Below are positions 1 through 9,988 of a DNA stretch of 9,988 nucleotides, piece after piece (position 1 is the stretch's first letter; each line of letters starts with the position of its first letter). The translations under genes and the position numbers were made by a program. The DNA comes from JBHIBR01 sp046759145 [NCBI: Nitrospinota bacterium] (lineage in GTDB: Bacteria > UBA8248), in contig JBHIBR010000039.1 in NCBI GenBank assembly GCA_046759145.1, positions 1 through 9,988 on the forward strand, given 5' to 3'. Under the pieces are notes generated by a model that saw only the letters and a program-made list of their open reading frames with translations, ran no database searches and was not told the DNA's origin.

Positions 1-798
1 CGGGTTGAGCATCAGGAAATGGCGTGCCGCGCGGGGCGCGCCGTTCTCCTCCACGGCGGCGAAGGGGAGTCCGGTGAGACGCTCGGCGAGCTCGGCCGCG
101 TTGCTCAAGGTGGCCGAAGAGGCCAGGAACTGGGGCTCAGATCCGTAGTGGCGGCACACCCGTCGCAGCCGCCGGAGCAGCAGGCCGATGTGGCCCCCGA
201 AGATGCCCCGGTAGGTGTGGAGCTCATCCACCACCACCGCCCGCAGGCCCCCGAAGAACTCCCCCCATTGCTCGTGGGAGGGCAGAACCCCGTGGTGGAG
301 CATGTCGGGGTTGGTGATGAGGATGCGGGGAGGCCTCTGGCGCAGCTTCTTGCGCCGGCTCTCGGGGGTGTCGCCGTCGTACACCTCCGCCCCCAGCTCC
401 CCCCCGGCGGCCAGGGGCCCCCCGAGGGCGTCCGCCAGCCGCCGGATGGAGCGCAGCTGGTCCTGGGCGAGGGCCTTGAGGGGATAGAGGTAGAGGGCGA
501 AGCTGCCCGGCTCGCGCAGGAGGTGCTGGAAGACGGGGAGGTGAAAGGAGAGACTCTTGCCGCTCCCCGCGGGAGCCACGGCCACCACATTGGCGCCCCC
601 GAGGGCGAGCTCGAGGGCTCGGACCTGGTGGGCGTAAAGTTTCGAGAAGCCCACAGTGGAGAGCGCCCCCCGGAGCCGCGTGTCGAGCTCTGAGGGCGCC
701 TCGCCGTAGCGCGCTCCCCGGGCGGGTAGACGCTCGGAGTGGGCCAGGGTTTCGGCGAAGTGGCGTTCTTCGAGTATGCCTCGGATGAACTGCTTCAC
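1..798 (-). CDS. DEAD/DEAH-box helicase, MrfA/YprA-like (DUF1998-type), C-terminal part missing
   Basis: The minus-strand frame from a GTG at 798 stays open for 266 codons and leaves the window at base 1, so only the first RecA-like lobe is present. Visible helicase motifs, counted from this start, are Walker A APAGSGKS (about residues 75-82), motif Ia with YPLKALAQDQ, a TNPDMLHHGVLP segment, motif II DELH (191-194) followed by TYRGIFG, and motif III SAT (about 228-230). The HTYRG and ICRHYGS-like surroundings (VCRHYGSEPQF) are typical of COG1205 helicases such as Bacillus MrfA, a 3'-5' helicase of DNA repair. An in-frame TAA lies 16 codons upstream of the GTG, and no ATG, TTG or other GTG lies between, so GTG is chosen although no good ribosome site precedes it. 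It is divergent from the glycosylase gene. The family call is strong; the repair role is inferred from the family. Confidence 0.88.
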   Translation of the reverse strand, partial: MKQFIRGILEERHFAETLAHSERLPARGARYGEAPSELDTRLRGALSTVGFSKLYAHQVRALELALGGANVVAVAPAGSGKSLSFHLPVFQHLLREPGSFALYLYPLKALAQDQLRSIRRLADALGGPLAAGGELGAEVYDGDTPESRRKKLRQRPPRILITNPDMLHHGVLPSHEQWGEFFGGLRAVVVDELHTYRGIFGGHIGLLLRRLRRVCRHYGSEPQFLASSATLSNAAELAERLTGLPFAAVEENGAPRAARHFLMLNP

Positions 799-962
799 AA
801 GAGGAGCCCGTCCCGGGCGGCGGAAGCCTCTCCCGCTCTCTCTTTACACGCGGGGGCCGGAGCGCGCAAGGGGAGAGGGCCCGCCCCCGGCGTTGGCGCC
901 GCGGGCGGGCTCCGCTAGGATAGTGGGAGCCCAAGCCACCTTTTCCCGCGTCGCGGAAGACC

Positions 963-1709
963 ATGGGCGCCGCTCTCGCGAAGGCAGGAAGAACTGCCCC
1001 GGGGACCCCCGCCGGGGGGGAGCTCCCCCACGGGCTTCCCCCCGCCGCTCGGGGGAGGAGAGAGAAGCTCCTCCGCATCTACCGGCTCCTGCTCTCCCAT
1101 TTCGGCCCGAGCGGCTGGTGGCCTGCTGAGAGCGCCTTCGAGGTGATGGTGGGGGCCATCCTCACCCAGAACACCGCCTGGGCCAACGTCGAGCGGGCCA
1201 TCGCCAACCTCAAAGGGGCGGGCCTCCTCTCCTTCCAGGGCCTGCGGGAGGTGAGCGCGAGGCGGCTTGCGCGCCTCATCCGGCCGGCGGGCTACTTCAA
1301 CCAGAAGGCGCGCTACCTCAAGGAGCTTGTGAGCCACCTGGAGGCCGCCTGCGGGGGCGACCTCTCCCGCTTCTTCGCCCGCGACACCGCGGCCCTCCGG
1401 GAGGAGTTCCTGCGCATCAAGGGGATCGGCCCCGAGACGGCCGACAGCATCCTCCTCTACGCGGGGGGTCACCCGGCCTTCACGGTGGATGCCTACACGC
1501 GCCGCTCCTTCGCGCGTCTGGGACTCATCCGCCCCCGGGCGCCCTACGAGGAGATCCGGCGCCTGTTCCAGGAGCACCTGCCGCCCTCTTCCTCCCTCTT
1601 CAACGAGTACCACGCCCTCATCGTCCGCCTGGGCAAGAACCTCTGCCTCAAGAGCCCGCGTTGCGGGGAGTGCCCCCTGCAGAAGTTCGGCTGCCGGACT
1701 GACCTCTAG
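963..1709 (+). CDS. Endonuclease III-related DNA glycosylase (HhH-GPD, 4Fe-4S), MagIII/COG2231-like
   Basis: This 248-residue protein has the HhH-GPD fold of base-excision repair glycosylases. The core begins near residue 33, and a GWWPA motif (51-55) precedes the segment AILTQNTAW (65-73). The helix-hairpin-helix is around residues 150-168, with KGIGPETAD. The catalytic Asp is D176 in FTVDAYTRR. Four cysteines near the C-terminus (C228, C234, C237, C244) form the iron-sulfur loop with spacing X5-X2-X6, slightly unlike X6-X2-X5 of E. coli Nth. At the position of the Nth catalytic Lys (GVGRKTA) there is Glu158, as expected for a monofunctional glycosylase such as Helicobacter MagIII (3-methyladenine) and not for a lyase. 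The first 30 residues are Gly/Pro/Ala-rich and poorly characteristic, so a later start is possible, but GGAAGA lies just upstream of this ATG. Substrate is not readable from sequence. Confidence 0.88.
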   Translation: MGAALAKAGRTAPGTPAGGELPHGLPPAARGRREKLLRIYRLLLSHFGPSGWWPAESAFEVMVGAILTQNTAWANVERAIANLKGAGLLSFQGLREVSARRLARLIRPAGYFNQKARYLKELVSHLEAACGGDLSRFFARDTAALREEFLRIKGIGPETADSILLYAGGHPAFTVDAYTRRSFARLGLIRPRAPYEEIRRLFQEHLPPSSSLFNEYHALIVRLGKNLCLKSPRCGECPLQKFGCRTDL

Positions 1710-1770
1710 GGGGAGGGTCCCTTGTGGGCCCGGAGGGGCGAAGCAGGGTGGCGCGACCAGCACCGGGGCA

Positions 1771-1799
1771 TTGACAAGGGGAGGGGGAGGCGCTATAAA
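1771..1799 (+). promoter_or_regulatory. Sigma-70-type promoter for tRNA-Ala
   Basis: A perfect -35 TTGACA (1771-1776) is followed after exactly 17 bp by a -10 TATAAA (1794-1799). The mature tRNA begins 12 bp after the -10, so transcription would start only a few bases before the 5' end of the tRNA. A weak GC-rich stretch separates this from the stop of the glycosylase gene, so the tRNA is probably transcribed on its own. Confidence 0.85.
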
Positions 1800-1810
1800 T
1801 CCTTCGGTGT

Positions 1811-1886
1811 GGGGCTGTAGCTCAGTTGGGAGAGCGCATGACTGGCAGTCATGAGGTCAGGGGTTCAAGTCCCCTCAGCTCCACCA
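1811..1886 (+). tRNA. tRNA-Ala, anticodon GGC
   Basis: The full cloverleaf can be drawn by eye in 76 nt. Acceptor strands GGGGCTG and CAGCTCC pair with a single G-U at pair 3:70, the classic alanine identity element. The D stem is GCTC/GAGC. The anticodon stem CATGA/TCATG encloses the loop CTGGCAG, giving anticodon GGC. The T arm AGGGG-TTCAAGT-CCCCT is intact. The 3' ACCA is encoded in the DNA. GGC reads GCC and GCU alanine codons. Confidence 0.98.
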
Positions 1887-1905
1887 AAATTTAACTACCC
1901 TGTGT

Positions 1906-1940
1906 CAAGGGCGCTGCTTGTGGGTTGGCGCCCTTGTTCA
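1906..1940 (+). terminator. Hairpin terminator downstream of tRNA-Ala
   Basis: A perfect 9-bp inverted repeat, CAAGGGCGC (1906-1914) and GCGCCCTTG (1928-1936), encloses a 13-nt loop and is followed by TTCATTT. The stem is stable and lies 20 nt after the tRNA. The T-run is short and interrupted, so termination may be partial. The same stem could also stop transcription coming from the minus strand. This sequence also lies at the 3' end of the recombinase remnant. Confidence 0.6.
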
Positions 1941-2440
1941 TTTCCCAGGCCGCGGTAAGCCTGCCTGAAAACCTCGCTTAACGTAAGAAGATCCTCCCCT
2001 GGGCGCCCGCAAGGGTTCCCCACAGGAAAACTTCCTTTCCCCTCATGCCGGGATGCTGGCTCCGCCATGCAGGCCTCATCGCTCTCCCTAAGGGATAGCG
2101 CACGGGGGATGCCCGGGTCGAGGACAATCCGCCTTGTTCTCAGGTTCACCTGCCCCCAGGCTAGGCCGAGCAATTCACCGGCCCTCATTCCCGCCCAGCA
2201 GGCCGCGCAGGATGGGGGAGGAGTTGAAAGCCGCCTGCAGATGGGTGTGGGCATCCCAGGCCGCCAGGGGGTGGTAGTGCTCGTCTGATGGGAGCTCGCC
2301 GACGGACCGATGGTACTCGACCAGCGAGGTGAAGCTGGCGGTCCTTGTCCTCCCGGCAGTACTTCTTCACCTCGTTTGGCCTGGCGAGAAGCCACAGAAT
2401 GTGCTGCCGGTCCGGGGGGATGAGATGAACGCCTTCCTGC
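1920..2440 (-). pseudogene. Tyrosine recombinase (phage-type integrase) remnant with frameshifts
   Basis: No intact gene exists here, but the minus strand carries pieces of an integrase in different frames. The clearest is GMRAGELLGLAWGQVNL (about 2200-2117), matching the box I region of tyrosine recombinases, where a GMR.GE.LGL.W.DV.L pattern is typical, with its catalytic Arg. Upstream of it, in another frame, NEVKKYCREDKDR resembles the inter-domain linker of such enzymes. Downstream, again in another frame, SYVKRGFQAGL resembles the stretch before box II. The box II HxxR and the catalytic Tyr were not found. The gene points toward the 3' end of tRNA-Ala, the usual arrangement for elements that integrate into a tRNA gene. 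Limits are approximate. The recombinase identity is good; the exact number of frameshifts is uncertain. Confidence 0.6.
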
Positions 2441-2475
2441 CCGTGCCACGGGGTACTACCCCCAATCATGGGGCT

Positions 2476-2506
2476 TTGACAAGGCCAGCCGGTTGTGGCG
2501 TATACT
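2476..2506 (+). promoter_or_regulatory. Putative promoter upstream of the sensor-kinase stub
   Basis: TTGACA (2476-2481) and TATACT (2501-2506) are both near-consensus, but they are 19 bp apart, longer than the preferred 17. The stub ORF begins about 40 bp after the -10. It may be the surviving promoter of a once complete gene. Confidence 0.45.
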
Positions 2507-2547
2507 TGGCCCGTGAAGAACTGGCGCGCCTTGTGGGGTGGGATCTC

Positions 2548-2835
2548 ATGAACTTACGATGGCTTAAATGGCTCGCCATCATCTTGCCTGCCCTGTTCCT
2601 GCTGCTCTTGGAGCTGGTGAGACAGCGCTATCTGGAGTCCTCTTTTACTCCCTGGACGGGGCGGCTCATCGCGGTCGCGGTTATGGTGGTCGGCGTCTCG
2701 GGCCTCCAGGCCTCTGATAGGTTGGGGACCTGGCGCGCCCGAGACGAAGAGAGGGCCGAGAACCGGGTCCGGAGGCACGACGCAGGACGGACATGCTGCC
2801 CCAAATGGCTGAGGGGAAAGGAGATTGACTATTGA
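2548..2835 (+). pseudogene. Truncated sensor histidine kinase N-terminus (two TM helices)
   Basis: The 95-residue ORF starts MNLRWLKWLAIILP, with a purine-rich GTGGGGTGGGA ahead of the ATG. Two hydrophobic helices (about residues 6-23 and 39-54) are joined by a short loop, followed by a charged stretch, RARDEERAENRVRRHDAGR. This layout resembles the membrane anchor and linker of GAF-type sensor kinases, whose linker often ends in an LHEAG-like motif. Here the reading becomes unlike the family right after HDAGR and stops, with no GAF, dimerisation or ATPase domain. No longer open frame continues it in the following bases. It could also be a genuine small membrane protein. The kinase origin is inferred from pattern only; being a remnant fits its position beside the dead integrase. 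Confidence 0.45.
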
Positions 2836-2853
2836 TACTAAAGATATTAAGTT

Positions 2854-2867
2854 TTAAACATGTTTAA
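2854..2867. promoter_or_regulatory. Perfect 14-bp palindrome in an AT-rich patch; possible operator
   Basis: TTAAACATGTTTAA reads the same on both strands and sits in an AT-rich island (about 2825-2870) within otherwise GC-rich DNA, about 150 bp before the cytochrome/CusF gene. Its shape would suit a dimeric regulator. No clear -35/-10 pair could be fixed around it, and no known operator consensus is matched with confidence. Confidence 0.35.
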
Positions 2868-3017
2868 TAGGCGTTCCCCCAAGGGGCGGAAGAAGGCGTA
2901 GGGCATCGAAGCCTCCTGAGGGGAGGGAGATCGGTCTGCTGACGCGCCCATGAGACGGAGAGGGGGAGACGGGCAGGTCTTTCCCTTCGAGGAGTTCGTT
3001 GAGGGAGGTGGCAGGCG

Positions 3018-4211
3018 ATGCTGAAGAGGCGGGTTGCAGAGTCCCTGAGGTGGATTTGGCTTGTCGCCCTCGTCGGGTGTCTGGCTTGGGCCTTGCCTGC
3101 GGGCGCGCAATTGGAACGTGGGAAAGGTGAACATCCAGAACGCCACCCCTCCCGTGAGAAGGCCCACCCGGCGGAGGTGCCGCAGCAGGGTCCTTACATC
3201 ACGATGGAGGAGTTGCACCGGCACGGAGGTACCCCGAGGGGGTGGAAGTTCCGGATCCCGCCCGGGGATCCGGAGTCCGGGCGCGAGGTCTTCATCGAGA
3301 ACAAGTGCTTCCGATGCCATGCCGTCGAGGGGGAGGACTTCCCTGCGGCGGAACGTAAGCCCACAGACATCGGTCCCCCTCTCAGCGGGATGGGCGGCCA
3401 CCACCCCGCCGAGTATTTGGCCGAGTCCATCGTCAATCCCAACGCCGTCATCCTCGTCGGAAAAGGCTATTTCGGTCCCGACGGCCGGAGCATCATGCCG
3501 ACCTACGCCGATTTGCTCACGATGCAGGAGCTCGTCGATCTGGTGGCATACCTGAAGAGCCTCACCGTGAAGAAACGCTTCTTCGAGGGGATCGGCAAGG
3601 TGATCGCGGTGCTCCCCCAAAAGGGCCAGATCATCCTGGACCACGGGCTCATCAAAGGCTTCATGGGCCCCATGACCATGGGCTACCGGGTGAAGGAGGC
3701 CAGCCTCCTTCAGGGCCTCAAGCCGGGGGACAAGATTCTCTTCACCATCGACGCCGAGGAGAAGGTCATCACCGGAAGGAAACGCCTCTTCGAGGGGGTG
3801 GGGAAGGTGGTTGCCGTGAACCGGGACAAGGGCCAGGTCGTCCTCCACCACGAGGAGATCAAAGGGTTCATGTCCACCATGACCATGACCACCCCGGTGA
3901 AGGAGGCGCACCTACTTAAAGGCCTCAAGCCGGGGGACAAGATCCGCTTCACCATCGAGGCCGAGGAGAAGGTCATCACCGGAAGGGAACGCCTCTTTGA
4001 GGGGGTGGGGAAGGTGGTTGCCGTGATCCCCGACAAGGGCCAGGTCGTCCTCCACCACGGGGAGATCAAAGGGTTCATGCCCGCCATGACGATGACCTCC
4101 CCGGTGAAGGAGGCGCGCCTCCTTCAGGGCCTCAAGCCGGGGGACAAGATTCGCTTCACCATCGAGGAGGAGAAGAAGACCATCGTGGAGGTGGAGAAGG
4201 TGGGGGATTGA
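3018..4211 (+). CDS. Secreted c-type cytochrome fused to three tandem CusF-like copper-binding domains
   Basis: The 397-residue product has a Sec signal peptide (basic MLKRR, hydrophobic core, likely cleavage after ALPAGA, residue 30), so it acts outside the cytoplasmic membrane. A His-rich linker leads to a class I-type cytochrome c domain (about 85-183) with heme-binding CFRCH (97-101) and a likely distal Met160 in SIMPTY. Three 69-residue repeats follow (186-254, 255-323, 324-392). Each has the CusF pattern H...IKGFM..MTM: candidate ligands are H209/M216/M219/M221, H278/M285/M288/M290 and H347/M354/M357/M359. CusF of E. coli binds Cu(I) or Ag(I) by His, two Met and a Trp; here Met stands where the Trp would be. 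GGAGG lies 10 nt before the ATG. It heads the run of genes that ends with the bd-like oxidase, suggesting electron and copper delivery. Domain calls are strong; the partner is inferred. Confidence 0.9.
   Translation: MLKRRVAESLRWIWLVALVGCLAWALPAGAQLERGKGEHPERHPSREKAHPAEVPQQGPYITMEELHRHGGTPRGWKFRIPPGDPESGREVFIENKCFRCHAVEGEDFPAAERKPTDIGPPLSGMGGHHPAEYLAESIVNPNAVILVGKGYFGPDGRSIMPTYADLLTMQELVDLVAYLKSLTVKKRFFEGIGKVIAVLPQKGQIILDHGLIKGFMGPMTMGYRVKEASLLQGLKPGDKILFTIDAEEKVITGRKRLFEGVGKVVAVNRDKGQVVLHHEEIKGFMSTMTMTTPVKEAHLLKGLKPGDKIRFTIEAEEKVITGRERLFEGVGKVVAVIPDKGQVVLHHGEIKGFMPAMTMTSPVKEARLLQGLKPGDKIRFTIEEEKKTIVEVEKVGD
3573..4193 (+). repeat. Three tandem 207-bp in-gene repeats coding the CusF-like domains
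   Basis: Units start at 3573, 3780 and 3987, exactly 207 bp (69 codons) apart, and begin AAACGCTTCTTCGAG, AAACGCCTCTTCGAG and GAACGCCTCTTTGAG. Units 2 and 3 are very alike at the DNA level (about 15 mismatches by eye over the first 180 or so bases), while unit 1 is more diverged. The order of divergence suggests an old duplication and a more recent one. Confidence 0.92.
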
Positions 4212-4261
4212 CGGGGGATAGACCGGGCGGATGGATCCACCGCAATCCGGGGAGGCGAACG

Positions 4262-5164
4262 ATGCCCAAGCGATACCGCGACATAGTCGGCGACGGCGGG
4301 AGCGGCATCCTGGGCCAGGTGCAGTCCATGCAAGAAGCCCTGGCCCGGCGCCTCGCCTCCATCCGGTGGACGGTGGCGGTGATGAGCGGCAAGGGGGGTG
4401 TGGGGAAGACCACCCTCACCGCCAACCTGGCGGTCGCCCTCGCGGAGATGGGCCTGGCCGTGGGAGCGCTCGACGCCGACATCAACGGGCCCGCCCTGGC
4501 CAAGGTGCTGGGCGTGCGCGAGCAGCGGCTCGGGCTCAGCGCGGAAGGGGTCCGCCCCGCCGAGGGGCCCTTGGGCGTCAGGGTGGTGTCCATGGACCTT
4601 CTCCTATCGCGCGATGACGCGCCCGTGGTGTGGGACGCGCCCACCCAAGCGGACGCCCACGTGTGGCGCGCGAACATGGAGGTCGGGGCCCTCCGCGAGT
4701 TCCTGGCCGACACCGAATGGGGGAAGCTGGACCTCCTGCTCCTGGACCTCCCCCCGGGCAGCGACCGACTCTCCCACGTCACGAGCCTGCTGCCGGGGCT
4801 CTCGGGGGCGCTCGTGGTGACGATTCCGAGCGATGTGAGCCTCATCGTGGTGCGCAGGTCGCTGAGCCTGGCGCGGGAACTCGGCGTCCGCCTCCTCGGC
4901 GTGGTGGAGAACATGGTGGGCTACCGATGCCCTGACTGCGCGCGCATCCAGCCCCTCTTCCCGCCCGAGCGAGGCGTGGAGGGGCTGGCGCGCGAGGCCG
5001 GCGTCCCCTATCTGGGCGGTCTCCCCTTCGACCCGGTGGTGGCGGCCCTCTCGGACGCGGGCCGGCCCGCCTTCTTGGCGGAGGGCGCTGAGCACCTTCG
5101 GCTCCTCTACGGCCAGGTCGCCCGGGAGCTGGTGCGCCTTCTCGAAAACCCTCCCGGGAGGTGA
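4262..5164 (+). CDS. Mrp/ApbC/NBP35-family P-loop ATPase (Fe-S cluster carrier)
   Basis: The 300-residue cytoplasmic protein has the deviant Walker A GKGGVGKTT (43-51), the LDADINGP segment after it, a Walker B-like LLLDLPPGS, the ENMVGY segment and a CPDC motif (223-226). In the Mrp/ApbC family this CxxC holds a bridging 4Fe-4S cluster between two subunits, which is passed to apo-proteins. The familiar LPPGTGD is altered to LPPGSDR. The ATG at 4262 is chosen because GGGGAGG lies about 7 nt ahead; the frame opens upstream at TTG 4208, but the added residues are not family-like. It follows the cytochrome gene by 50 bp and precedes the zinc-ribbon gene by 3 bp, so it is probably cotranscribed and may supply the radical SAM enzyme or another local Fe-S protein. 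The target is inferred. Confidence 0.9.
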   Translation: MPKRYRDIVGDGGSGILGQVQSMQEALARRLASIRWTVAVMSGKGGVGKTTLTANLAVALAEMGLAVGALDADINGPALAKVLGVREQRLGLSAEGVRPAEGPLGVRVVSMDLLLSRDDAPVVWDAPTQADAHVWRANMEVGALREFLADTEWGKLDLLLLDLPPGSDRLSHVTSLLPGLSGALVVTIPSDVSLIVVRRSLSLARELGVRLLGVVENMVGYRCPDCARIQPLFPPERGVEGLAREAGVPYLGGLPFDPVVAALSDAGRPAFLAEGAEHLRLLYGQVARELVRLLENPPGR

Positions 5165-5167
5165 CCC

Positions 5168-5713
5168 ATGAAGTTCCTCTGCCTCGCCTGCGACGAGCCC
5201 ATGGAGTACGCGGCGCTGGATGGCCCCGACGAGGATGGCTCCTGCGCGGTGACCTTCTGCTGTCCCCGCTGCGGGCACAGACTGGCTCTCCTCACCAACC
5301 CGTGGGAGACGCAAATTGTCCGCAGCCTCAACGTCAAGATCGGTGGGCGAACTGTCTCTGCGCAACCCTACGAACAGGTGCGGGAGACGCTCCCGGGAAG
5401 CGGAGAGCGCATCCTCGAGAAAGAGCCCGGGGCGACGGAGGGGGAGGTTTCCCCTCCGCCGGGAGGCGGGGGCAAGTGCCCCTTCTCGGGCCTCCCAGGG
5501 CGGCCCGAAGGCTCCTCAGCGCAGGCGCCCTCGGCGGCCCCTGCCCCCGCGCCGCCCCGATGGACGGAAGAGGCTGCTGAGGAGCTCGAAGAGATCCCCG
5601 AGGCCTACCGCCCCATGGCCATGAAGGCGGCCGAAGGATACGTCCTCGAGAGGGGCCAGGAGAGGGTGACGGCCGAGCTTCTGCGGGAGGTGCGGGCGCA
5701 GCTTGGCCTTTGA
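5168..5713 (+). CDS. Zinc-ribbon-like protein with C-terminal PCP_red domain
   Basis: The 181-residue protein has three parts. Residues 1-60 carry two CxxC knuckles, CLAC (5-8) and CPRC (32-35), with extra C26 and C31, which suits a zinc ribbon or a small Fe-S site. The middle (about 75-130) is Pro/Gly/Ala-rich, likely disordered, and holds a lone KCPFSG motif around C104. The end (about 131-180) matches PCP_red (PF08369), the small domain at the C-terminus of light-independent protochlorophyllide reductase subunit B: a Trp, EEAAEELEEIPEAYR, then EGYVLERG and VTAELL. The start has a strong GGGAGGTGA that overlaps the Mrp stop. No chlorophyll genes are nearby, so a role in another tetrapyrrole or redox cofactor is possible. 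The domain call is good; function is unknown. Confidence 0.8.
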   Translation: MKFLCLACDEPMEYAALDGPDEDGSCAVTFCCPRCGHRLALLTNPWETQIVRSLNVKIGGRTVSAQPYEQVRETLPGSGERILEKEPGATEGEVSPPPGGGGKCPFSGLPGRPEGSSAQAPSAAPAPAPPRWTEEAAEELEEIPEAYRPMAMKAAEGYVLERGQERVTAELLREVRAQLGL

Positions 5714-5754
5714 TTCCCCTGCCCGGGATCCCTTGGCCGATGAGGGGGCGCGGG

Positions 5755-6609
5755 ATGCGGGCGAGGCGGTTCTGCCGCTCTTCGGGCGGATTGAGGGAGA
5801 TGGGAGCGCCTTCGCCCGCGCCGGGCGAGATCCTGTGGACGACGGCGGCGCTGCGGCGCGTCGAGAACGCTCCCGCCTTCGTGCGTTCGGGCATCTACAA
5901 ATTGATGGTCAAACGTGCCCGCGAGCTGGGTCAACCCCTCATCAGCTCGGACTTCCTCAGCCAGATCCGCGACGAGGCCATGCTGAGGGTGACGCGCAGC
6001 ATGAAGCGGATGGGGTTTGAGGAGCTCCATCCGGGGGCGTTCGAGGTGGCCAAGCAGAGGCTGAAGCGCAGCGCGCGCAAGCTCGAAGTCCTCGAGGCCA
6101 TCCAGGCCTTCCTGGCCCAGCGGTCGGGGCGGAGCGCGGAGATCGTGGCGAAGTTCCGCGACTACTTCGAGAGCCTGCCGGAGCGGGGCCTCCTCTGGAC
6201 TCCGGAGGCCGAGGCCCGAATGGAAAAGGTGCCCCCATTCGTCCGTCCCATGGTGCGCGAGAAGGTCGAAGCGGAGGCGCGCAAAAGGAAGCAGACCGTC
6301 GTGACGCCCCCTCTGCTGGAGGCCGTCTTCGAGGCGCTGGTCCCCGCCCCCGTTCGGGGGATGTTGCGCTCCCGGACGAAGGAGCCCCTTCCCTCTGGGC
6401 CCCGCCGGGAGCGGGGGGAGGAGGAACCGACCGTCAGTTGGTCGCTCGAGGCGGTCGAGGAGTTGCGTCGTATCGAGGATGACGGGGAACGTCGGAGGGC
6501 CCTGGAGCGGGTGGCCTCCTTCGCCCAAGAGCGCGGCCTTTCCCGCATCACCGCTTCGGCGTTCGCCGCGGCCTTGGGGGCCCCGCTCCGGCCTCCGGAT
6601 CGGCCGTAG
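5755..6609 (+). CDS. Protein with three PCP_red-like domains
   Basis: From this start the product is 284 residues with no membrane segment or signal peptide. Three segments share the PCP_red pattern (Trp, Glu/Ala-rich helix, P..VR, helix, RE.G, (I/V)(S/T)...): residues about 27-76 (ILWTTAALRRVENAPAFVR), 147-196 (LLWTPEAEARMEKVPPFVR) and 228-275 (VSWSLEAVEELRRIED, the most diverged, lacking the P..VR). A basic helical region lies between the first two. Starts at 5740, 5755 and 5800 are all in frame; 5755 is preferred because AGGGGG lies 6 nt upstream. Repeated PCP_red copies in one chain are unusual for a domain normally seen once at the end of a nitrogenase-like subunit. It lies between two other PCP_red genes. 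It may be a scaffold or tetrapyrrole/cofactor handling protein; no catalytic residues are recognised. Confidence 0.7.
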   Translation: MRARRFCRSSGGLREMGAPSPAPGEILWTTAALRRVENAPAFVRSGIYKLMVKRARELGQPLISSDFLSQIRDEAMLRVTRSMKRMGFEELHPGAFEVAKQRLKRSARKLEVLEAIQAFLAQRSGRSAEIVAKFRDYFESLPERGLLWTPEAEARMEKVPPFVRPMVREKVEAEARKRKQTVVTPPLLEAVFEALVPAPVRGMLRSRTKEPLPSGPRRERGEEEPTVSWSLEAVEELRRIEDDGERRRALERVASFAQERGLSRITASAFAAALGAPLRPPDRP

Positions 6610-6679
6610 GAGGGCGAAACGCGCTAGGAGGATGAGGGGCCCCGCCGGGGAGGACGCGTCCCTTCCGGGAGAGCGAAGG

Positions 6680-8017
6680 ATGAGAGAGACCACCGAGAGG
6701 CGGGTGCAGGCCATCAGCTGGAACCTGACCCGGCGCTGCAACCTCCGCTGTGCCCACTGCTACATGAGCGCCTTCCCCGGGGCGGATTGCTCGGCGGAGC
6801 TCACCCGGGATGAGTGCCTCAGGGCAGTGGACCAGGTGGCCGAGGTGAACCCCAACGCGTTCCTCATCCTAACGGGAGGGGAACCCCTTGTGCGGCCCGA
6901 CCTCTTCGACATCGCCACGAGGGCCTCGGAGCGAGGGTTCACGGTGGTCCTCGGGACCAACGGCGTCCTCCTCGACCGGAGGGCGGCCGATCGCATGAGG
7001 GCGTCGGGCATACAGGGGGCGAGCGTGAGCTTGGACTCGGCCGACCCGGGGCGTCACGACCGCTTCCGCGGGCCCCCCGGCTCGTGGGAGAAGGCGGTGC
7101 GGGCGGCGCGGCTGCTGCTCGAGGCGGGTCTCCCCTTCTCTCTCCATTTCTCGGCCATGGAGTGGAACGCGGATGAGTTGCCCGCGATGGTGCGCTTCGC
7201 CCGGGAGCTCGGCGCCCAGGTGCTGAACGTCTTCTTCCTCGTCCGCACGGGCCGGGGCGAGGGCTTCGCCGGGCTGCCCGCCGCCCGTTGCGAGGAGGCG
7301 CTGCGCTTCCTGGCGCGTGTCCAAGGGGTGAAGGGGAATGGGGGCGATCCCGACGAGGCGCCCGTCGATGCAAGGGATCTCCTCATCCGGGCGAAATGCG
7401 CCCCGCACTTCCGTCGGGTCGTCTACGAGCTCGACCCGGCATCCCCGCTCCTCGCCGACTACGCCCATGGAGGCTGCCCTGCCGGGCGGGAGTACTGCCG
7501 GATCGGCCCCTCGGGCGAGGTGACGCCCTGCCCCTACGTCCCGCTCTCGGCGGGGAGCCTCCGCGAGAAGCCTTTTGGGGAGATCTGGCGCTCCTCCTCC
7601 CTGCTCAGGCTCTACCGCTCGGGCACGCTCAAGGGAAGGTGCGGCCGGTGCGAGTTCCGCGAGGTGTGCGGAGGGTGCCGGTGCCGGGCCTACGCGGCGA
7701 CGGGCGACCCCATGGAGGAGGATCCCGCCTGCGCCTATGAGCCCCGGGGCGACGCGCCTCTGGTGCGCTTCCCCGCGGAGAGGAGCTTCGGGCTCGAGTT
7801 CGAGACCGGCCTCGCCTGGACTGTCGAGGCCCGGGAGCGCCTCTCCCGCATCCCTTCCTTCGCCCGGGGGATGGTGGCCAAGGGCGTGGAGGACTACGCC
7901 CGCGAGCGGGGCGTCTCCCCCATCACGGCCGACTTCATGAGGGAGGCCCGCGAGGCGCTCCTCTCGCGGAGCATCATGCCCGGATTCGTCCGGGACCGCC
8001 TCCTGGGGAAGCGATGA
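6680..8017 (+). CDS. Radical SAM/SPASM protein (NirJ/AhbD/PqqE-like) with C-terminal PCP_red domain
   Basis: The 445-residue enzyme has the radical SAM cluster CNLRCAHC (C20, C24, C27), GGEP and a VSLDS strand. A SPASM region follows with many cysteines: GGC, EYC, TPCPY, CGRC, REVCGGC, RC and ACAYEP. The CGRCEFREVCGGCRCRAYAATGD-like layout is close to heme-modifying family members such as NirJ (heme d1) and AhbC/AhbD (siroheme route to heme), but peptide-modifying relatives share it. Residues about 378-428 are a further PCP_red domain (LAWTVEARERLSRIPSFAR, then ERGVSPITADFM). GGGAGA 7 nt ahead supports the ATG at 6680; an in-frame ATG at 6632 has AGGAGG directly abutting, which is too close. 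Its stop overlaps the next start as ATGA, implying translational coupling with the oxidase-like gene. The substrate is not determined. Confidence 0.85.
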   Translation: MRETTERRVQAISWNLTRRCNLRCAHCYMSAFPGADCSAELTRDECLRAVDQVAEVNPNAFLILTGGEPLVRPDLFDIATRASERGFTVVLGTNGVLLDRRAADRMRASGIQGASVSLDSADPGRHDRFRGPPGSWEKAVRAARLLLEAGLPFSLHFSAMEWNADELPAMVRFARELGAQVLNVFFLVRTGRGEGFAGLPAARCEEALRFLARVQGVKGNGGDPDEAPVDARDLLIRAKCAPHFRRVVYELDPASPLLADYAHGGCPAGREYCRIGPSGEVTPCPYVPLSAGSLREKPFGEIWRSSSLLRLYRSGTLKGRCGRCEFREVCGGCRCRAYAATGDPMEEDPACAYEPRGDAPLVRFPAERSFGLEFETGLAWTVEARERLSRIPSFARGMVAKGVEDYARERGVSPITADFMREAREALLSRSIMPGFVRDRLLGKR

Positions 8018-9988
8018 GCGCGCACTCTCCGGCCTTTCGGGGCGAGCGACGGGCGGCGCGCGGCAGCCTGCTGGCGGCCTCCCTGGGCCTCCTGGTGCTC
8101 CTCCCGCTCCCCGCGCTGGCCCAGGCGGGGGCCCCCGCGGATTACCGCAGCTTCTTCGCCCTCGACTCCCGCACCGCCATCTGGGCGGTGGCGCAGCTCC
8201 ACCTGATGTTCGGGGCCTTCGTGCTGGGGGTCCCCATCTTCGCCCTCATCACCGAGTTCATCGGACACCGGACGGGCGACGAGCGATATGACCGCCTCGC
8301 GCACGAGTTCACCAAACTCCTCTCGGCCGCCTTCGCCACCACGGCCTCCCTCGGGGGGCTCTTCGTCTTCCTGCTCTTCGGTCTCTACCCGCGCTTCATG
8401 AACTTCATGGGGGGCGTCTTCCACGGCTCGATGTACGTCTACGCCCTGCTCTTCTTCGCCGAGGCCTTCTCCCTCTACCTCTACTACTACTCCTGGGAGC
8501 GGCTGCGCGGCGGGGGGAAGAAGTGGCTCCACATGGGCTTCGGGCTGGCGCTGAACCTGACGGGCATCCTGCTCATGGCCATCGCCAACGCCTGGGTCAC
8601 CTACATGATGAGCCCCACGGGGATCGACCCCGAGGCGAACCGGTTCGTGGGTACCACCTGGGGGGCGATCGCGAACCCGCTCTGGATGCCCCTGAACGTG
8701 CACCGTTTCATCGCCAACGTGGCCTTCGGGGGCTTCGTCGTGGGGGCCTACGCTGCCGTCAAGTTCCTGGGGGCCAGAAGCCAGGAGGAGCGGGGCCACT
8801 ACGACTGGATGGGCTATGTCGGCAATTTCGTCGGGGTGAGCGCGCTCATCCCGCTGCCCTTCGCGGGCTACTGGCTGGGGCGCGAGGTGTATAGCTTCAG
8901 CCCGGTCATGGGCAACAACATGATGGGCGGGGCCTTCAGCTGGACCTTCATCATCCAGGCCATGCTGATCGGGATGCTCTTTGTCGGGGCGAACTTCTAC
9001 CTCTGGAACGGGATGGAGCGCATCCCCGGGGCCGAGCGATACCAGGGCTTCATCAAGTGGCTCAACCTCATCCTCGTCCTCTGCTTCGCCGTCTGGCTCA
9101 CGCCCCACAACCTCCCGCTGAGTTCGGCCGAGCAGGTCCGCATGGGGGGCCAGTATCACCCCGTGCTGAAATACCTCGGCCTCATGCCCGCCAAGAACGC
9201 CGCGGTGAACTTCATCATCCTCTCCACCTTCTTGAGCTTCCTCCTCTACCGGCGGGGGAACAAGGGCAAGCGCCTCCCCTTCAGCGCCCACGGGCCGCGG
9301 GGCAAACTCGTGGTGGGGGCGGCGGCGGCGGTCTCGGTCCTGATCCTGCTCTGGTTCGCCCGCGTGCTCTTCACGCTGGATCCGCGCGACATGGACCTGA
9401 CGCCGGACCGCCGGGTGTATTTCCTCATCCCCGCCTACCTCTTGATCGCCCAGGCGGCCGTGCTGGCTGCCTGTGTGCCCATGACCTACCGGGACCGCGG
9501 CGTGGCGGCCCAATTTCTCTACCTCGGGATCACGGTCTTCTCTGCCACCCTCTTCCTGGGAGCCTACGGGTTCGTGGTGCTCGAGAGGGCCAACCCCTTC
9601 CTCCGCGAGATCGCCGTGGTCCAGGTGCTCATGGTGCTCACCGCGCTCATCTTCGTCACGGCCGTGGACGTCTACCTCTTCCGGGGGGCGGAGGAGGCCG
9701 GCGGGGTCCAGTGGGGGAAGGTTCCAGTGCGGGCCCAGTACGCGCTGATCCTCCTTTGCGTGAGTGTCGTGCTGCTCATGGGACTGATGGGATTCATCCG
9801 CTCCGGGTTGCGGGAGGACTGGCACATTTACGGCGTGCTGCGGGATACCTCCGTGGGTGCCTTCACCCCGACCATGGCGCACATGGCCTGGGTGGTGGGC
9901 GGCATCGCCGTCCTCTTCCTGGCGCTCATGACCTTCGTCTTCTGGCTGGGCACCCTGGGCGAGGAAAGCCCTCGCCCGGCGGCGGAGG
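8014..9988 (+). CDS. Cytochrome bd oxidase subunit I (CydA)-like membrane protein, C-terminus cut by window
   Basis: 658 codons are open to the window edge. A hydrophobic N-terminal segment ending PALAQA (about residue 38) looks like a signal peptide or extra helix, then many TM helices follow. Compared with E. coli CydA, His63 in QLHLMFG fits heme ligand H19. FFAEAFSLYLYYYSWERL fits the E107 region, with Glu150 matching; the E99 position is Val142. ANAW..YMMSP fits VANGWMQNP. NPLWMPLNVHRF places His230 at heme b558 ligand H186. The long quinol-binding Q-loop between helices 6 and 7 seems to be missing, and the chain extends well beyond CydA length with more helices. It recalls the long bd-like oxidases described in Nitrospira. 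It probably takes electrons to oxygen or another acceptor, perhaps from the cytochrome c. Family is secure; enzyme activity is inferred. Confidence 0.8.
   Translation, partial: MSAHSPAFRGERRAARGSLLAASLGLLVLLPLPALAQAGAPADYRSFFALDSRTAIWAVAQLHLMFGAFVLGVPIFALITEFIGHRTGDERYDRLAHEFTKLLSAAFATTASLGGLFVFLLFGLYPRFMNFMGGVFHGSMYVYALLFFAEAFSLYLYYYSWERLRGGGKKWLHMGFGLALNLTGILLMAIANAWVTYMMSPTGIDPEANRFVGTTWGAIANPLWMPLNVHRFIANVAFGGFVVGAYAAVKFLGARSQEERGHYDWMGYVGNFVGVSALIPLPFAGYWLGREVYSFSPVMGNNMMGGAFSWTFIIQAMLIGMLFVGANFYLWNGMERIPGAERYQGFIKWLNLILVLCFAVWLTPHNLPLSSAEQVRMGGQYHPVLKYLGLMPAKNAAVNFIILSTFLSFLLYRRGNKGKRLPFSAHGPRGKLVVGAAAAVSVLILLWFARVLFTLDPRDMDLTPDRRVYFLIPAYLLIAQAAVLAACVPMTYRDRGVAAQFLYLGITVFSATLFLGAYGFVVLERANPFLREIAVVQVLMVLTALIFVTAVDVYLFRGAEEAGGVQWGKVPVRAQYALILLCVSVVLLMGLMGFIRSGLREDWHIYGVLRDTSVGAFTPTMAHMAWVVGGIAVLFLALMTFVFWLGTLGEESPRPAAE

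Follow-up and report, generated by a model that had tools for sequence, protein, structure and literature searches.

Five PCP_red domains in three adjacent genes beside a cytochrome bd-like oxidase gene of a Nitrospinota bacterium

Three adjacent genes with PCP_red domains

We analysed a 9,988-nucleotide stretch of DNA (the window) from a Nitrospinota bacterium (assembly GCA_046759145.1, contig JBHIBR010000039.1, positions 1 to 9,988), in which three adjacent genes carry copies of PCP_red (PF08369), a domain known from chlorophyll synthesis. The first gene (5168..5713, + strand) encodes a 181-residue zinc-ribbon protein with two CxxC motifs and a C-terminal PCP_red domain (residues 132-176; 5561..5695, +). 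The second, which we call the middle gene (5710..6609, +), encodes a protein with three such domains: domain 1 at 5836..5970, domain 2, the best match, at 6196..6324 (residues 163-205), and a weak domain 3 at 6439..6573, all on the + strand. The third (6680..8017, +) encodes a radical S-adenosylmethionine (SAM) enzyme of the SPASM type (PF04055, 94.5 bits; PF13186, 37.4 bits) from the AhbD/NirJ2 branch, and it too ends in PCP_red (residues 380-424; 7817..7951, +). The stop codon of the zinc-ribbon gene overlaps TTG 5710; because the conserved part of a relative of the middle protein begins at a matching Met, ATG 5800 is the more likely start of the middle gene.

A preliminary description of this locus had placed five PCP_red domains over these three genes, and the placement was correct: PF08369 exceeds its curated (gathering) cut-off of 32.5 bits in all three, with 42.4 bits for the zinc-ribbon protein, 85.3 bits for the whole middle protein, and 55 bits for the radical SAM enzyme. 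For the middle protein, the count of three depends on a lax E of 1, the limit to which the Pfam scan reported matches. An iterated hidden Markov model (HMM) search over all loci, seeded with these same domains, gave 2e-12, 7e-19, and 2e-10 for domains 1 to 3. The nearest relative of the window is locus L001 in genome G001 (here L denotes loci and G genomes), whose radical SAM protein is 84% identical; in its middle protein, PF08369 scored domain 2 at 59.7 bits and domain 1 at 23.2 bits, under the cut-off, and domain 3 was not listed in that scan.

The five domains are an old set of paralogs, not recent copies of one another, since their pairwise identity of 17-44% is far below the 66-88% that the domains of the middle protein and of the radical SAM enzyme share with their positional counterparts in L001. 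By position, the middle-protein domains match their L001 counterparts at 76, 85, and 66%, and the radical SAM domain matches at 88%. The zinc-ribbon domain is without a counterpart in L001, where its best match is 49%. Relatives of the middle protein lie at L001 9527-10426, L052 2154-2921 (- strand), and L004 7271-8320 (-). The L052 relative is a stand-alone three-domain protein, with 73% identity to the window protein in domain 1 and 60% in domain 2; on this ground we rejected the idea that the middle gene is a truncated Usp-PCP_red protein.

Both sequence and fold (2kru, 2ynm) tie these proteins to BchB of the light-independent protochlorophyllide reductase (DPOR), which has PCP_red at its own C-terminus. 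Unlike BchB, the window proteins gave no Pfam match to a catalytic domain of the nitrogenase-like type. BchB models score 21-56 bits on them against cut-offs of 490-912, and the full-length BchB model gave 29 and 55.5 bits, short of its 509-bit cut-off.

Modelling the middle protein alone, as had been proposed, yielded a structure that is poor overall (predicted local distance difference test, pLDDT, 54.7), with most ten-residue blocks of domains 1-2 at 70-82. The part around domain 2 fits solved PCP_red structures. Foldseek aligned the model with 2kru (1.7 A over 53 columns, E 0.037, probability 1.00) and 2l09 (1.1 A over 49 columns, E 0.063, probability 1.00), and structure comparison around domain 2 gave Z 9.1 for 2l09 (2.5 A, 61 aligned), Z 8.5 for 2kru (4.1 A, 63 aligned), and Z 7.0 for BchB 2ynm_D (1.4 A, 50 aligned). 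After these, the modelled region matches the helical lids of AAA+ proteins, including RuvBL at Z about 8, although a value of this size may reflect a common arrangement when the domain is small and helical. The resemblance extends to the lid of magnesium chelatase ChlI (8osh, Z 5.7) and, weakly, to histones.

Among 159 distinct PCP_red domains, a set that includes four from solved structures, Trp1 (100%), Ala5 (99%), Ala28 (98%), and Thr37 (92%) are the best conserved positions, followed by Arg17 (87%), Glu25 (84%), and Pro13 (81%). No His or Cys is conserved above 15% in this set, and Met19 and Tyr27 reach at best 58% and 48%. The preliminary description had suggested that PCP_red binds or presents a tetrapyrrole. 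Binding by the domain itself is disfavoured by the lack of a conserved His or Cys and by the lid-like fold, and both features make docking a likelier role for PCP_red than pigment binding.

Gene neighbourhoods and distribution

Every window gene that we describe downstream of position 3018 is on the + strand. The run begins with a c-type cytochrome fused to three CusF copper-binding domains (3018..4211, +; PF00034, 51.2 bits; PF11604 CusF_Ec, 152.9 bits in three stretches), a fusion just upstream of the Mrp gene that perhaps delivers or senses copper for an oxidase. Next is an Mrp/ApbC-type P-loop ATPase, a putative iron-sulfur cluster carrier (4262..5164, +), whose start at 4262 was chosen within a frame open from TTG 4208. 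Its assignment draws on both PF10609 (225 bits) and a CxxC motif, CPDC, read in the sequence; the NCBIfam models MrpORP (224 bits) and ApbC (148 bits) each stay under their cut-offs. Only 3 bp separate it from the zinc-ribbon gene. At the other end, the ATG at 8014 of a cytochrome bd-like oxidase subunit (8014..9987, +, reaching the window end) overlaps the stop codon of the radical SAM gene (ATGA). This protein matches PF01654 above the cut-off (84.4 bits, residues 52-298), yet only positions 2-243 of the 418 in the profile are covered, and it scores 42.6 bits against 5doq_A; the window stops within this gene or just past it. Coverage of the N-terminal half only is also what PMC3578206 describes for the bd-like oxidases of the nitrite oxidisers Nitrospina and Nitrospira.

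To look at neighbours more widely, we used 33 loci found by a search with the radical SAM protein. By eye, 29 of the 33 have a multi-PCP_red protein, or the contig-cut end of one, as the immediate upstream neighbour of the radical SAM gene; an automatic count gives 26/32, missing L025 and L027 (overlap filter) and L010 (insufficient room). The exceptions are L003, L005, L029, and L032, the last being a distant radical SAM protein without PCP_red. The enzyme bears its own PCP_red in 29/33 loci as well, with L028 and L031 cut at contig ends. The preliminary description had taken conservation of the trio as a test of its proposal. The exact trio, with all three genes adjacent, is seen in the window only; what recurs are its pairs, namely the multi-PCP_red protein with the radical SAM-PCP_red enzyme and the Mrp ATPase with the zinc-ribbon-PCP_red protein. 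The zinc-ribbon architecture, with one or two PCP_red domains, is found also in L004, L046, L048-L051, L053, L073, and L077. Its gene adjoins Mrp in 8 of 13 loci (the window, L004, L046, L048, L049, L053, L073, and L077) and not in L050, L051, L074/L075, L076, and L082; L047, where the PCP_red part alone was found, is excluded from this count.

Respiratory genes are frequent neighbours. In Rokubacteria the order is COX1, a UbiA-type (CtaB-like) gene, two COX3 genes, COX4, CarboxypepD_reg, Usp-PCP_red, radical SAM-PCP_red, and Mrp. COX3 lies upstream in 18/21 loci that offer 6 kb or more of sequence there, COX1 in 11/13 that offer 9 kb or more, and Mrp at most 3 kb downstream of the radical SAM gene in 20/26 with room for it. 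In L001, nitrite oxidoreductase (NXR) genes are followed by the three-domain protein, radical SAM-PCP_red, and a bd-like oxidase, which thus lies downstream as in the window; NXR subunit A matches 7b04 over its whole length (1778 bits), and the arrangement is like the NXR-linked clusters of nitrite oxidisers. L003 has a bd-like gene nearby on the opposite strand. In G226, on a distant branch, a Crp-type regulator precedes radical SAM-PCP_red, a Usp protein, a bd-like oxidase, and cytochrome c. A multicopper oxidase gene of G169 is grouped with those for a bd-like oxidase, cytochromes, Mrp, and zinc-ribbon-PCP_red.

Three details of these neighbourhoods are worth recording. The NXR operon of L001, on a contig of a Nitrospinota metagenome-assembled genome, occupies 1809-5303, and the genes for the PCP_red protein and the radical SAM enzyme follow it directly. 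G169 also holds a 720-residue frame (L078 4766-6925, -) in which radical SAM is fused to three PCP_red domains, beside a Usp-PCP_red protein. In the Nitrospira-type genome G242, a further radical SAM protein (L071 5236-6873), which matches a B12-binding model weakly (28.1 bits, cut-off 32.1), sits just upstream of Usp-PCP_red and radical SAM-PCP_red.

PF08369 occurs in 64/95 Methylomirabilota genomes and in 108/198 Nitrospirota genomes (107 over the cut-off), 63 of the 198 having at least 10 domains. Among 14 control genomes it was found in the cyanobacterium only. Chance matches are not an issue, because every Methylomirabilota genome bearing the domain holds 2-10 copies. The recurrent forms are zinc-ribbon-PCP_red with one or two domains, Usp-Usp-PCP_red-rubredoxin-PCP_red-PCP_red, radical SAM-PCP_red, and stand-alone proteins with three or four PCP_red domains. 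PCP_red had been described as normally a single appendage of BchB, which does not hold: multi-copy sets are common in Methylomirabilota and Nitrospirota. Its proposed expansion outside BchB is borne out in 10 genomes by strong, context-placed matches in radical SAM, Usp, zinc-ribbon, and stand-alone PCP_red proteins, chlorophyll genes themselves not having been searched.

The radical SAM enzyme and heme b synthesis

The window radical SAM enzyme scores 279 bits with NirJ2 (TIGR04055), 274.8 with AhbD (TIGR04545), and 257.7 with TIGR04053, reaching none of the three cut-offs (500, 500, and 395 bits); three relatives score 300, 323, and 348 bits with NirJ2 and 309.9-343.5 with AhbD. NirJ2, a putative heme d1 radical SAM protein, thus gives the equal or near-equal best profile score, but below 500 bits, and we know of no NirJ2 that carries PCP_red. 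With AhbD and the AhbD-like proteins encoded near HemH, the radical SAM-PCP_red enzymes share the radical SAM/SPASM branch, the CX3CX2C motif, auxiliary cysteines, and 53 near-invariant positions. Of the SAM-motif and auxiliary-cluster cysteines that AhbD holds fixed, a single one is not retained, and its column is not fixed in AhbD-like rows either. In contrast, the score is little over half the AhbD cut-off, PCP_red is added at the C-terminus, and at 8 positions the fixed residue is not the one found in AhbD and AhbD-like proteins; two of these (N15 and Y28) adjoin the SAM cluster motif and have the state of AhbC.

In trees, the radical SAM-PCP_red enzymes form one group (94/94 with 74 rows, 98/97 with 54 rows) that sits apart from AhbD, AhbD-like, and AhbC proteins. 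The AhbD side has 98/95; AhbC-type rows form their own clade (100/100) and the radical SAM-PCP_red enzymes do not group with them. L031 was left out before the first tree as too short, and 31 rows, including the outgroup L032, before the second; both trees are without NirJ2 and TIGR04053 members, and the tree program flagged that certain long branches join each other. By these sequence comparisons, the clade is sister to the heme synthase AhbD. The tetrapyrrole idea of the preliminary description is thus supported in part, through this AhbD-sister gene and through AhbD-class enzymes that bear PCP_red in two genomes (see below).

To ask how heme b is made, we surveyed 80 selected genomes. HemF matched in 0/80 and HemN exceeded its cut-off in 0/80; weaker HemN-model matches in 77/80 (up to 198.5 bits) were taken for HemW-like paralogs. 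Accordingly, heme b should be made via coproheme, by ChdC or an AhbD. In the coproporphyrin pathway, coproheme is produced by HemH. Its presence in 50/64 PCP_red-positive Methylomirabilota therefore does not exclude a heme b role. ChdC-family genes occur in 58/80 genomes, strongly in 24/24 Nitrospira-type genomes and in G001. For the 30 PCP_red-positive Methylomirabilota of the set, ChdC is strong in 7, weak in 19 (38-52 bits), and not found in 4. The weak Rokubacterial PF06778 matches were counted as divergent ChdC; the suspicion that they are something else was dropped, since L121, L122, and L124 keep the core Tyr and the EH-motif His (alignment of nine sequences, with L123 and L129 disregarded as being in the wrong frame). 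In two Methylomirabilota, ChdC lies close to HemN-model matches with frames of about 840-850 residues (G005:C100:77271/79362 and G058:C25:18164/15672).

Several genomes pair the radical SAM-PCP_red enzyme with another enzyme expected to make heme b. It coexists with AhbD in G117 (complete) and in G136 and G145 (both contig-cut before any PCP_red), and with an AhbD-side enzyme in G122. Eight selected genomes have an AhbD-like gene on the HemH contig, within about 2 kb in seven and about 10 kb away in G228, and gave no ChdC match; radical SAM-PCP_red coexists with AhbD-like enzymes, and no ChdC, in G198, G177, G214, and G226. With ChdC it coexists in 18/24 Nitrospira-type genomes, the 18 where the gene itself was inspected (17/17 of one survey plus G242). 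As the genomes checked already have AhbD, an AhbD-like enzyme, or ChdC for this purpose, radical SAM-PCP_red enzymes probably carry out a reaction other than heme b synthesis. Heme b synthase as their sole role, which we favoured at first from the absence of HemF and of HemN matches over the cut-off, is weakened by the same coexistence. We also rejected an oxygen-independent heme A synthase, as COX15/CtaA occurs in 54/64 PCP_red-positive and 27/31 PCP_red-negative Methylomirabilota, with no association.

In a further variant, the AhbD-side enzymes of G121 and G131 have a C-terminal PCP_red of their own (37.4 and 39.7 bits; tree side 98/95), and G140 has a copy cut at a contig end; all three genomes also have radical SAM-PCP_red. 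The genes lie at L148 3571-4968 (G121) and L149 993-2390 (-; G131). G121 and G131 show no match for HemH, ChdC, or HemF and no HemN over the cut-off, and they have AhbC-type genes (522 and 529 bits, below the 650 cut-off). With the other routes not found and AhbC-type genes present, AhbD-PCP_red is presumably the heme b synthase of these two genomes.

These data bear on the idea that radical SAM-PCP_red decarboxylates coproheme independently of oxygen, which would give a second route to heme b, at low oxygen, alongside ChdC. Gene sets of the coproporphyrin pathway are known to include AhbD (PMC10548856 and PMC7242693), and Haloferax uses ChdC with oxygen and AhbD without it (PMC5746218); by analogy, a role of the radical SAM-PCP_red enzyme without oxygen is possible. 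The idea gains from coproheme being the expected precursor where HemH is present, from the AhbD branch with its cysteines, from the Crp-type regulator in G226, and from G121 and G131, where no HemH or ChdC is shown and the sole AhbD-class enzyme seen bears PCP_red. Even so, we consider it unlikely: such an enzyme would be redundant beside AhbD (G117, G136, and G145), AhbD-like (G198, G177, G214, and G226), or AhbD-PCP_red (G121, G131, and G140), 8 otherwise fixed positions differ, including N15 and Y28 by the SAM cluster motif, and AhbD scores of 275-344 bits fall well under 500.

The model of the window radical SAM enzyme (pLDDT 73.9, predicted template modelling score 0.75) has PqqE as its best structural match (Z 24.9, 3.4 A, 280 aligned). 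Together with the SPASM domain and best matches that are all peptide enzymes (PqqE, SuiB, and SkfB), this raises the prospect that the enzyme matures a peptide or protein, as in ribosomally synthesized and post-translationally modified peptides or an oxidase cross-link, with PCP_red recognising the substrate. We find this distinctly unlikely, as the NirJ2 and AhbD profiles reach about 275-348 bits against 135 for PqqE (window); a short precursor gene was also not noticed, though without a systematic search.

A possible maturation module for oxidases

Our preferred reading places the three genes in a module that matures the aerobic respiratory chain. The radical SAM/SPASM enzyme would be its catalyst and would most likely alter a side chain of a tetrapyrrole, as a step distinct from the making of heme b. 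PCP_red would be the shared docking domain that joins this enzyme, a scaffold of repeated PCP_red, and a cysteine-knuckle partner of the zinc-ribbon or rubredoxin type. The neighbouring Mrp ATPase may supply iron-sulfur clusters, and the product would be delivered to the adjacent oxidase, bd-like in the window. The analysis shows the domain content, gene order, clade, respiratory neighbours, and, in the genomes checked, coexistence with the enzymes expected to make heme b; the tetrapyrrole substrate, the docking, the cluster supply, and the delivery are inferred. We hold this statement tentatively and, taken whole, judge it slightly short of probable. A further reading, in which a dedicated AhbD-sister enzyme works in a complex held by PCP_red to make a special, undescribed heme-type cofactor for the bd-like or heme-copper oxidases of nitrite-oxidising and related bacteria, seems doubtful to us.

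Several observations weigh against the maturation module. PF08369 occurs in 1/18 genomes of the phylum of G001, so that the module is not general there, and no zinc-ribbon-PCP_red protein is shown in G001. In G262, a four-domain PCP_red gene and a zinc-ribbon gene lie amid housekeeping genes with no oxidase beside them. For L005 and L029, which have radical SAM-PCP_red and room around it, searches gave no adjacent PCP_red protein or oxidase, and in G198 the Usp and radical SAM-PCP_red genes are followed by cobalamin genes rather than an oxidase. The closest solved structure to the enzyme is the peptide enzyme PqqE, with no AhbD among the matches listed. ChdC was not found in PCP_red-positive G002, G067, G101, and G106, and a divergent HemN may lie behind the below-cut-off matches in 77/80 genomes.

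Two explanations centre on PCP_red instead. The domain might itself be a tetrapyrrole carrier, holding the pigment without an axial protein ligand and passing it between enzymes, and its presence on BchB (2ynm_D), an AhbD-class enzyme, and the radical SAM-PCP_red clade would fit. This is quite improbable in view of the conservation described above, where Met19 and Tyr27 are the best alternatives to His or Cys, and of the small, lid-like helical fold. That PCP_red proteins are regulators tuning respiration under energy or oxygen stress, with the radical SAM gene an operon passenger, is suggested by Usp domains on many of them and by the likeness to AAA+ lids and, weakly, histones, but is highly implausible because the enzyme bears PCP_red in 29/33 loci and so is a member, not a passenger.

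The window genes belong to a wider respiratory module that is apparently undescribed: we found no description of a PCP_red-radical SAM module in the open-licence literature. Radical SAM is not mentioned in the two papers searched on bd-like oxidases and NXR clusters of nitrite oxidisers, nor is 'PCP' in PMC6606698, the one paper searched for that term. According to PMC6606698, the terminal oxidase of Nitrospira, a main nitrite oxidiser, is still only proposed to be a bd-like protein. An accessory module near bd-like or heme-copper oxidases of several lineages, centred on a heme-type radical SAM enzyme, would give a handle on oxidase assembly and heme type. It would also extend PCP_red from chlorophyll synthesis into respiration, and its sharing by proteins encoded next to respiratory oxidases, in nitrite oxidisers and related bacteria, suggests that a step in the assembly of their respiratory chain has gone unrecognised.

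Upstream of the gene run, the window holds a tRNA-Ala(ggc) gene (1811-1886) followed by an open reading frame on the - strand (1895-2449) in which the stretch GMRAGELLGL by eye resembles a tyrosine recombinase; the Pfam scan gave no match for it. The pair is possibly the remnant of an island insertion.

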